From an uncultured Granulosicoccaceae bacterium (lineage in GTDB: Bacteria > Pseudomonadota > Gammaproteobacteria > Granulosicoccales > Granulosicoccaceae), in the NCBI GenBank assembly GCA_937957915.1, contig CALGNZ010000047.1, positions 186,001 through 250,000 of the forward strand: 64,000 nt of DNA, given 5' to 3'. Numbering within the stretch: position 1 is the stretch's first letter; every line of letters begins with the position of its first letter. This document shows, piece after piece, positions 9,734-16,967 of this stretch. The position numbers and the translations under genes were made by a program. Under the pieces are notes generated by a model. That model worked only from the letters and a program-made list of their open reading frames with translations. It did no database searches and was not told where the DNA came from.

Positions 9734-12021
<2,288 letters not shown>

Positions 12022-13814: not shown

Positions 13815-15500
13815 TCAGCGGCGCAAGCGGCAGAGACCGCATTGCAACAACAACATTGCAAATAGCCATTCAAGCGCTGCCAGTGCGCCTCCACCGGAGG
13901 TTTGGCTCTGGTTGCTGCCTCCTGCTGCGTTGCCTCCGCTTGCATCGCCATCACTGGCGTCTGCGGTACCCGGGCTTTCATCATCTGTGTCAGGGTCGTT
14001 TTGCGCTGCAACAATCACCTCGGGTATAACGATCTGCGCGCTGTTGTTTGCGTTGTGTACGTCCAAAAAACCTTCTGGTTCGAGGCTGGCGGAGATCGTG
14101 ATCTCCTGACCTTCTTCCAGGTGTAAGTTAAACGCCAGTGACTGTGACTCTTCTGCAAACGTTGTATCTACAGCGCATTGCACACTGTTGTCAGAAATCA
14201 GTTCGCAACTTGCCGGTGCTGCAGCGATGGTGGCATGTTGCAAATCGACGGTCAGTGTGGCTGAAGGAAATGCGCGCACACCGTCGGTATTAGTTACAAG
14301 CGCGATGATGCCGGTGTCGTCCTGCCGGGCAAGCGTAATGTCCATATCAATTGCATCTTCGTGGCAGGTACTTTCTTCCAGTCGCTTGCTAATGGCATCA
14401 ACACTACAGCTGGAAAAGGCTCTGGTGGAGTTTTCATTGATGTGCGAAAACATCAGTCCGTCACTGATATTGTTGCATTGGCTGGTCTCATCGTCATGCA
14501 ACGCGCCGAGGTTGTGCCCGATTTCATGAGCCGTAAGCAGGATCGGGTAGCGAAACGGAAGCGACAGGCTGACGTCGTATCCATTCGTCTTGCATACCGT
14601 ATCAATATAGGCAAGCCCGACTGAGGGATCTGCGGTTAGAACCCCGGTAAACAAATGGACCAGAGCTAAATCGTTGCTGAGTTGATCTGCAAATAATCGG
14701 TAGTCGCGAAATCGGGTCAGGTTATCTTCCAGTGAAATATCACCCAGAGCCAGAGTTTCATTGTCAGTCACCATAATGGCTGTCTCGACTTTAAGAGCCA
14801 GACCGAATTCCTCGCGGTAAATGCCGTCAACAGCGTTTATTGTGGAAATTGCCTGAGCCAGACCTCTGCCACCAATGGCCTCGTCGTAGGCGCTGTCGAT
14901 GACGATGGCAATGCGCGCTACCTTTGTTACTTTTTCTGGTTTGTTAAAGAAGCCATTGCCGATATCGATCTCAACGATATCGCCTGTGAGGCTATCAGAT
15001 TGATCGTCAAACGGTTCGATGGGGTCTGCCAGCAACTGGCCGAATGGTGAATTGAAGCCGGATTGTATTTGTCTGATGACATCTGCCGAGACGATATGAT
15101 TGAGATGAATGCGCTCATCACCTGTATCAATAATGCCAGCGACTTCGTCGCCTTGAACTACGATCCGCACCCACGAGTCTGCGACGTTTTCGAGTTGTCC
15201 CTGATAGACCGAGATGTCGGTAAGATTGCCTTGGCGGCTGCCGGTTTCATCAATGGTAAGAATATTGGTGTTGCCAAATGCCTCGCTCTTGTTGAGCAGC
15301 AGCGTCTCCTCCCGATTGTCGAGCTGCAGGCGCAATTTGTGGCTGAACGTTGCATCACTGAACGGCCCGATGTCCACAATTGATACATTGCTGTAGACAC
15401 CCGCGGTTGCCATGTGTGAGGACAGGGGGAAGGATAATATGATGCTTGTCGCAAGCATCAACTTTTTGAAAAGATTACTAATTTTAATTTCTCGGCGCAT
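13815..15500 (-). CDS. Secreted reprolysin-type zinc metalloprotease with GlyGly-CTERM anchor
   Basis: 561 residues. A signal peptide follows a basic start (KKLMLATSIILSFPLSSHMATA). The metzincin zinc site HEIGHNLGALHDD lies near residues 323-335 and carries the three His ligands and the catalytic Glu. Upstream RIAIVIDSAYDEAIGG fits the first strand of an adamalysin-like catalytic domain. A region of possible beta domains follows, then an acidic/Gly linker. The C-terminus reads SGGGALAALEWLFAMLLL with a basic end (CRLRR): a Gly-Gly, hydrophobic, basic tripartite tail matching GlyGly-CTERM (rhombosortase substrate) signals. It is therefore probably exported by type II secretion and processed at the tail. 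The substrate is unknown. Confidence 0.88.
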   Translation of the reverse strand: MRREIKISNLFKKLMLATSIILSFPLSSHMATAGVYSNVSIVDIGPFSDATFSHKLRLQLDNREETLLLNKSEAFGNTNILTIDETGSRQGNLTDISVYQGQLENVADSWVRIVVQGDEVAGIIDTGDERIHLNHIVSADVIRQIQSGFNSPFGQLLADPIEPFDDQSDSLTGDIVEIDIGNGFFNKPEKVTKVARIAIVIDSAYDEAIGGRGLAQAISTINAVDGIYREEFGLALKVETAIMVTDNETLALGDISLEDNLTRFRDYRLFADQLSNDLALVHLFTGVLTADPSVGLAYIDTVCKTNGYDVSLSLPFRYPILLTAHEIGHNLGALHDDETSQCNNISDGLMFSHINENSTRAFSSCSVDAISKRLEESTCHEDAIDMDITLARQDDTGIIALVTNTDGVRAFPSATLTVDLQHATIAAAPASCELISDNSVQCAVDTTFAEESQSLAFNLHLEEGQEITISASLEPEGFLDVHNANNSAQIVIPEVIVAAQNDPDTDDESPGTADASDGDASGGNAAGGSNQSQTSGGGALAALEWLFAMLLLQCGLCRLRR

Positions 15501-15616
15501 AAATAACTTTGCCTGATGTACTTCGGTGTTTCAGTCGTGAACAGCAGTTTGCGTTGCAGTTGCCGACTTGGAATCCTTCCACAGTATCAACATAATGACA
15601 ATGTCTGTGCGCAAAA

Positions 15617-15650
15617 TCAAAAAAACCCGCGCCGGTATGGTGCGGGTTTG
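15617..15650 (-). terminator. Intrinsic terminator downstream of the repeat lipoprotein
   Basis: On the minus strand AACCCGCACC pairs with the GGCGCGGGTT side, followed by a run of T residues (complement of the A-run at 15619-15625). It lies about 105 bases after the stop at 15756. A second perfect 8-bp hairpin (GAGACGCC / GGCGTCTC, 15664-15686) precedes it without a T-run. Confidence 0.75.
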
Positions 15651-15755
15651 CTGGTTCAGCAGGTGAGACGCCTGATTCGGCGTCTCTGACTCTTGCGATT
15701 CAGATCGGTCAGTATCCCGACCAGCGGCAGGCCCGCTGGCGGTGTAGGGTTAAGT

Positions 15756-16967
15756 CTACTGTGGCGATACGCCCAATGCACGAACCGTTGCAATATTCAG
15801 GTAGTTATCAACTGGAAGTTTCTTCGCTCGCTGGAACGAATTAACGGCAGTCATTGTCGATTTGCCGACCACACCATCAATAGCACCCGGGTTATGGCCC
15901 GCTGATTTCAGCGCCTGCTGAATCTGTGTAATTCGGTCGCGGGTCATGTTGGTGTCGCACAGGATTTCGCGCCACTCCATTGAGCCATCCTTGACCAGTT
16001 TTCGCTTTGTGACGGTGGCATATTTTCCCGGAACCTTGATGCGCTTTTCTGTTGCCGGAGTTGTTTCGTCAGTAACGGTCACTGTTTTGTATTCAGCGGG
16101 GATTACAACCTTGCGGGTAGTCGGGGGAGTATCCACCACGCGCTTTTCTATGGTGTTGTATACCGCGGGAATTTCAACAACTTTAGTTGATGCGGGTGTT
16201 TTCAAAACGCGCTTTTTGACGGTTTTGTAAGAGGCGGGAACAGTGACCAGGCACATGATTTCACCGGTGGTTTCGTCAATGCGCTGAATTGGTCCGGTAC
16301 CTTTCTTCCAGGTGGTGTGAGCTGGCTTGTCGATTACACGTTCGGTGACTGTGTCATAGGTTGGCTCAACCTGGATCAGCTTCTTTGTTGCTGCCTTGAC
16401 CAGGACTCGTTCCTTCACCATTTTGTACTTGCCGGGAATGGTGACCAGTTTCTCCGACGCTTCTTTCACTAACACGCGTTTTTTTACGTTGCTGTATTTA
16501 GCTGGAATAATCTCGATGCGCTCGGACGGCTCCTGCACCAGGATTCTATCGGTGATCGTGTCATATTTCGGTCCGACCCACAGGCGTGTAAAACACTGTC
16601 CGGGTTTGGCACCGGGGGGCAGCAAGTCACCAGCACCATAGTTACTGCCAGCCTGCACGGGTGTTGCAGCTTGTGATGATTGCTGAGCGAGCAGTGACTC
16701 GCGCTTGTCCAGTTCCGCAGCTCGTCGGTTAAGTGCTTCTTCGCGAGATGCGAGTGCGTCTGCTTCGTCACCGCCGGTGACTGCATCGGCTGCGGCTCCA
16801 GCGGTGCTTTTAGCGGCACCGGCAATCTTGCCAGCTGTGCCCGTTACGCCGTCAGTTACTTTTCCAACGGTCGAGCAAGCAGACAGGGATGCAAGCAGAA
16901 TGGCTGCCGATGCCAGGGTTTGGAAGTTTCTGGTGTTTTTCACAGTTGATACTCCGGGTTTTACCAT
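15756..16967 (-). CDS. Peptidoglycan-binding lipoprotein with eight 23-residue tandem repeats
   Basis: 403 residues from the ATG at 16967, which gives a clean lipoprotein signal (LASAAILLASLSAC, Cys 31). An Ala/Gly-rich segment and a charged helix (about residues 70-98, ALASREEALNRRAAELDKRE) follow. Residues 129-337 hold eight repeats of the pattern Y-x-T-V-x-K-R-V-L-V-K-x-A-x-x-K-x-x-x-I-P. The fourth carries a 20-residue insert. Residues about 343-400 form a PG_binding_1 domain (ITQIQQALKSAGHNPGAIDG, then VVGKSTMTAVNSFQ). Three further Cys (125, 239, 337) could form disulfides. The protein probably tethers the outer membrane to peptidoglycan, with the repeats as a spacer. The repeat family was not recognised. 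Confidence 0.82.
   Translation of the reverse strand: MVKPGVSTVKNTRNFQTLASAAILLASLSACSTVGKVTDGVTGTAGKIAGAAKSTAGAAADAVTGGDEADALASREEALNRRAAELDKRESLLAQQSSQAATPVQAGSNYGAGDLLPPGAKPGQCFTRLWVGPKYDTITDRILVQEPSERIEIIPAKYSNVKKRVLVKEASEKLVTIPGKYKMVKERVLVKAATKKLIQVEPTYDTVTERVIDKPAHTTWKKGTGPIQRIDETTGEIMCLVTVPASYKTVKKRVLKTPASTKVVEIPAVYNTIEKRVVDTPPTTRKVVIPAEYKTVTVTDETTPATEKRIKVPGKYATVTKRKLVKDGSMEWREILCDTNMTRDRITQIQQALKSAGHNPGAIDGVVGKSTMTAVNSFQRAKKLPVDNYLNIATVRALGVSPQ
15957..16583 (-). repeat. Protein-level tandem repeats, unit about 69 bp
   Basis: Eight consecutive units of about 23 codons within the lipoprotein gene. Typical units are YSNVKKRVLVKEASEKLVTI, YKMVKERVLVKAATKKLIQV and YKTVKKRVLKTPASTKVVEI. 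The units diverge in nucleotide sequence, so the array is old and held by selection rather than a fresh duplication. Confidence 0.85.

Follow-up and report, generated by a model that had tools for sequence, protein, structure and literature searches.

The window, a 64,000-nucleotide stretch of DNA, carries a gene for a repeat-containing protein on its minus strand. The preliminary description had begun the reading frame at an ATG at 16967 (ORF 15756-16967, 403 amino acids). The ORF and its parts were borne out, but the gene probably starts at a GTG at 16943 instead (15756..16943, 395 amino acids), because GGAG lies 8 bases 5' of this codon (at 16952-16955) and a Met at the GTG column starts most of the orthologues (alignment A1). 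Residue numbers throughout are those of the frame that begins with the ATG at 16967.

The protein begins with a lipoprotein signal peptide (16875..16943, minus strand): the stretch ILLASLSAC-S includes a lipobox (LSA-C) with Cys31 and a Ser at +2, and it is preserved among orthologues. In E. coli, Ser at +2 is a signal for sorting to the outer membrane. Past the lipid anchor, the AlphaFold2 model has a helix in the linker (residues 67-99; 16671..16769). By sequence periodicity and AlphaFold2, two array halves follow, both on the minus strand. The first half (16302..16595) consists of Cys125 and four 23-residue units and ends just past Trp220; the second half (15957..16253) consists of Cys239, four units, Trp332, and Cys337. 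Between them, the 17-row alignment A1 delimits a central insert, W220-C239 (WKKGTGPIQRIDETTGEIMC; 16251..16310). The protein ends with a PG_binding_1 domain (PF01471; residues 343-398; 15774..15941), which was identified by Pfam with E = 5.8e-13 and 49.3 bits, compared to a gathering cut-off of 23. This domain shares the fold of the wall-binding domains of SltB3 and SleB (5ao8_A; Z = 10.3, with a root mean square deviation of 1.9 Å over 62 residues). The combination of a lipid anchor, a repeat array, and PG_binding_1 in one protein thus stands as first described, with each part found in the sequence.

On the 3' side of the gene, there is a terminator-like hairpin with a T run (15623..15649, minus strand; z = -2.3 when folding 15590-15670), which is absent from the list of a separate scan. 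The downstream neighbour (13815..15500, minus strand) encodes a secreted M12B (reprolysin-like) protease, as identified by Pfam, and is in place at all 10 orthologous loci (L021-L030). The C terminus of this metalloprotease has a Gly-rich stretch, a hydrophobic helix, and an Arg tail, which we take to resemble the GlyGly-CTERM sorting signal. In the window's genus, both genes belong to a conserved block, obgE-rpmA-ispB-protease-repeat gene-rluE-like-exonuclease-hemW-rdgB. All nine genes are present at 6 of the 10 loci, and the remaining four loci miss only genes towards rdgB. This conserved block says little about the function of the repeat protein.

The repeat array and its fixed spacing

The self-similarity of residues 120-345 at a lag of 23 (mean BLOSUM62 score) was 0.99 per position, compared to at most 0.10 at any lag in 2,000 shuffles. 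The repeats span residues 125 to 337, approximately. The Tyr of each unit is at 135, 158, 181, and 204 and then at 247, 270, 293, and 316; the step from Tyr204 to Tyr247 is 23 + 20 residues, that is, one 20-residue insert. Eight 23-residue repeats, one such insert, and three further cysteines (125, 239, and 337) had been described, and all are present. The count of eight units was right, but the layout is better given as two groups of four framed by Cys and Trp: each half begins with a short strand that bears a conserved Cys (125 and 239) and ends with a strand that bears a conserved Trp (220 and 332). Cys337 comes after the second Trp, directly ahead of the wall-binding domain. Across 17 aligned relatives, conservation is highest in the W220-C239 insert, and T234-V241 (TGEIMCLV) is invariant in all 17 rows.

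The preliminary description did not recognise the repeat family, and this holds for Pfam, NCBIfam, and the sequences in the PDB. We looked for a match to a described repeat domain, and no model in Pfam or NCBIfam matched the array of the window protein at E values of up to 1. The arrays of six divergent relatives yielded only hits below the cut-offs of these databases. Sequence searches of the PDB matched the wall-binding domain, and the linker that precedes the array gave two weak matches to Bd3460 (E of about 0.2). A literature search, mostly outside subscription journals, found no description of the family; a paper on leucine-rich repeats that it turned up proved unrelated. Among viral sequences, endolysin models from PHROGs matched, chiefly on the wall-binding domain; none of 53 pattern matches in viral contigs was confirmed, and phage records gave no match. 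Plasmids gave a single weak match that covered 26% of the query.

The array is predicted to form beta structure. In the AlphaFold2 model from alignment A1, it consists of alternating strands of 7 and 12 residues, with a pLDDT of about 85 and a pTM of only 0.31. A model of half of the array also reached a pTM of 0.31, with one good run of five and four poor ones. Our guess, from the strand lengths and the ribbon-like matches from Foldseek, is that the array may be a staggered ribbon. The fold searches, which used query models of limited confidence, gave no reliable match to the array in the PDB (Foldseek and VIA), and viral models gave no usable match. The likeness that Foldseek reported to the stems of pore-forming toxins (lysenin, aerolysin, and CDTb) is that of long two-strand ribbons. 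With VIA Z scores of at most 3.1 and deviations of 4-17 Å, we claim a common arrangement and no kinship.

The length of the array is fixed in the window type. In all 11 of the window-type orthologues that we compared, the three cysteines are separated by 114 and 98 residues, and the linker from the lipid Cys to the first of them varies from 83 to 97. The array is therefore the constant part of the protein, and the N-terminal linker is the variable part. Among 112 distinct ORFs from the family, many of which are from close relatives, 43 have spacings of exactly 114/98 and another 12 have spacings of 114-141 and 98-99; in the four longer ORFs that we read (L094, L096, L102, and L105), the extra residues are in the central insert. 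Twenty-two belong to a longer type, in which the array is divided into four parts and the spacings are near 106/91/89/75. Five lack the middle Cys and keep the outer two, 209-219 residues apart. The other 30 are truncated, are giant, or have different Cys layouts. The preliminary description had proposed an adjustable tether and had suggested comparing the number of repeats among strains. We found no variation in repeat number within the window type; the number of units differs only between types of paralogues. Given the strict spacing in orthologues and far relatives, we reject adjustability by repeat number for the window protein.

Arrays can apparently expand within the family, but as separate proteins, judging by the longer type and by a giant paralogue in a genome of the same genus (L041; G013:C220, 2-4897). 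This paralogue has at least 1,632 amino acids, as it is truncated at the start of the contig, and its array has 36 clean 23-residue steps and 35 different units that are nearly uniform. The giant form was recognised in just one genome. Besides its repeats, this paralogue has a wall-binding domain, and its tail is rich in Gly and Ser.

Distribution of the family and nearby channel genes

Of 40 near relatives, 28 have the family, as do 55 of 369 genomes sampled from the class (E = 1e-10) and 13 of 398 genomes from the phylum (E = 1e-15). Two of 200 genomes from another phylum also have it; one of these is a metagenome-assembled genome labelled Gemmatimonadales (L037). The relatives with names are mostly Granulosicoccaceae. 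The window's genome contains four copies (on C47, which is the window's, and on C41, C150, and C117), and only the window's copy has a lipobox. On this sequence evidence, the lipid anchor is not a trait of the family. Two relatives from the same phylum but outside the class (L067 and L069) lack the wall-binding domain. In one genome from that phylum, the products of two adjoining genes (L067/L173) are relatives that each have three Cys; the scan covered the longer of the two, which lacks the wall-binding domain and has very regular PAVYGYRSKRV units.

When neighbouring genes in other lineages were compared all against all, mechanosensitive channels stood out. Pfam confirmed these (163 bits for MscL, with MscS-type models in four other proteins). 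Of 98 neighbourhoods, 11 encode MscL no more than 3 kb from the repeat gene. In five of them (L034, L035, L110, L111, and L139), it is downstream on the same strand at a distance of 61-310 bases. A gene of the MscS type lies within 1.4 kb in 5 of the 98 (L033, L034, L035, L037, and L119). At L034 and L035, an MscS-like gene, the repeat gene, and MscL come in this order on the same strand, and the matches are 61-353 bases apart; at L033, MscL is 396 bases upstream and MscS is 99 bases downstream of the repeat gene. A gene with DUF4332 (helix-hairpin-helix) also recurs within 1.7 kb (L034, L035, L116-L119, L133, and L139), and some of these loci have a DUF937-like gene as well.

Of the 55 genomes in the class sample with the family, 31 contain mscL. 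We tested linkage in the 29 of these in which the genes could be placed, among the matches listed; G437 and G190, for which the repeat positions were missing from the list, were left out. mscL was within 3 kb of a repeat gene in 7 of the 29 genomes, or 3 of 18 families, compared to 0.13 families expected by chance (P = 2e-4). A bound of 5 kb gave P = 8e-4. At 16 kb, mscL was linked in 13 of the 29 genomes and 7 of the 18 families (0.57 expected, P = 4e-7), but this bound was picked after the positions were known, which affects the two narrower bounds less. Outside the class sample, only 5 of 25 genomes that contain mscL have it 16 kb or less from a repeat gene, among the matches listed. These five genomes (G002, G003, G006, G012, and G017) have mscL about 6.4-6.7 kb from the repeat gene and share the C41-type paralogue of one family, so they represent one lineage. 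In G821, the second genome from the phylum Gemmatimonadota with the family, mscL is on another contig, and none of the channel seeds matched in the 16 kb covered at the repeat gene.

The window's own repeat gene has no channel gene nearby, and a search of its genome for mscL found none. In the C41 block of this genome (L194, about 10350-10723), roughly 370 bases separate the flanking matches, and mscL and a large neighbouring ORF are absent. Five relatives carry mscL at exactly this gap, and the flanking genes are kept in the window's genome. A tree of 60 proteins, several forks of which are weak, puts a minimum of two changes in MscL adjacency on branches with good support; a single recent event therefore does not explain the adjacency.

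A proposed tether between the outer membrane and the wall

The reading that we favour, at about even odds (roughly 0.5), is that the protein is a tether of fixed length from the outer membrane to the wall that aids envelope mechanics. The lipid anchor would place the protein in the outer membrane, the C-terminal PG_binding_1 domain would grip the cell wall, and the array of eight beta repeats would act as a spacer of fixed length between them. Such a brace might help the envelope to bear turgor, and the link to turgor and osmotic stress is inferred from the gene neighbourhoods of relatives, not from the window's own locus. A tether had been proposed from the start, and the lipobox, the array, and PF01471 in the sequence support that much of it; the adjustable part fell away. 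The strict Cys spacing, an array model with nothing but strands, and relatives near channel genes also argue for it. Against it, the lipid anchor is dispensable in the family, L067 and L069 lack the wall-binding domain, the models of the array and of its half are of low confidence (by pTM and by run), and the window's copy is away from channel genes in a genome that lacks mscL. A broader proposal strikes us as speculative and rather unlikely: that this family, widespread and so far undescribed, consists of beta-repeat proteins that are bound to the wall in the periplasm and work with MscL and MscS, as strain-bearing struts of fixed length that protect the envelope or report stretch during osmotic downshock.

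We considered other roles for the same parts. Because the central insert is more conserved than the repeats, a binding site fits better than a plain spacer does, and the protein could serve in the periplasm as a scaffold or to bind a ligand. A site for binding or redox chemistry would then be made up of the insert, with its Cys239, and the frames of Cys and Trp; the wall domain would only position it. The invariant TGEIMCLV is consistent with this, as is the Cys at every border of a half-array in two architectures. But the middle Cys is gone, with the first and last kept, in those 5 of 112 ORFs, and outside PG_binding_1 nothing in the protein resembles a known enzyme or binding domain (in Pfam or NCBIfam), so we hold this alternative only tentatively. 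A wall-bound accessory factor of murein turnover, with the repeats as an arm that binds a partner, seems improbable. The top matches to the wall-binding domain, by fold and by sequence, are indeed SltB3, SleB, and other murein enzymes, but the protein has no catalytic domain (Pfam and NCBIfam), and no murein enzyme was recognised among the recurrent neighbours, ten of which were scanned with Pfam. It is more improbable still that the repeats assemble between molecules or cells as a fibre or matrix that is rooted by the lipid and wall domains. The nearly uniform units of the giant paralogue would suit a fibre, but the layout of the window type is strictly fixed and the giant form was recognised in a single genome.

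Comparison with known tethers

Tethers between the outer membrane and the wall govern the width of the periplasm and the stiffness of the envelope; Lpp, Pal, and OmpA are well studied. A repeat family that is absent from Pfam and NCBIfam, has a fixed geometry, and recurs near genes for pressure-release channels is a testable lead on envelope mechanics in bacteria with no detected Lpp. Braun lipoprotein (Lpp) links the outer membrane to the wall through a lipid anchor, as the window protein would, and the length of the tether matters. The stiffness of the E. coli envelope is set by tether length and covalent linkage (PMC7156740), tether length sets the distance from the outer to the inner membrane (PMC5736177), and lengthening Lpp in E. 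coli makes Pal, OmpA, and YiaD essential (PMC8824477). Lpp differs from the window protein in that it forms a short coiled coil of helices with a covalent bond to the wall, and the window protein does not match PF04728 (LPP) at E values of up to 1. PF04728 did not exceed its cut-off in any of 25 relatives, and Lpp had no match in the 369 genomes of the class sample at E values of up to 1e-4; the E. coli control was positive. We had also considered whether the repeat protein replaces Lpp, but because no genome in the class sample has a match to Lpp, a test for mutual exclusion was uninformative.

Pal and YiaD (PF00691) have a lipid anchor and a domain that binds the wall non-covalently, a plan that the window protein would share. 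The window protein has PF01471 in place of PF00691 (the OmpA-like domain, which it does not match at E values of up to 1), with the beta-repeat array in between. Its genome encodes 28 OmpA-like wall-binding domains, so other proteins could also serve as tethers. SltB3 and SleB have the same family and fold of wall-binding domain, and where they have an enzyme part, the window protein has a repeat array and a lipid anchor instead.
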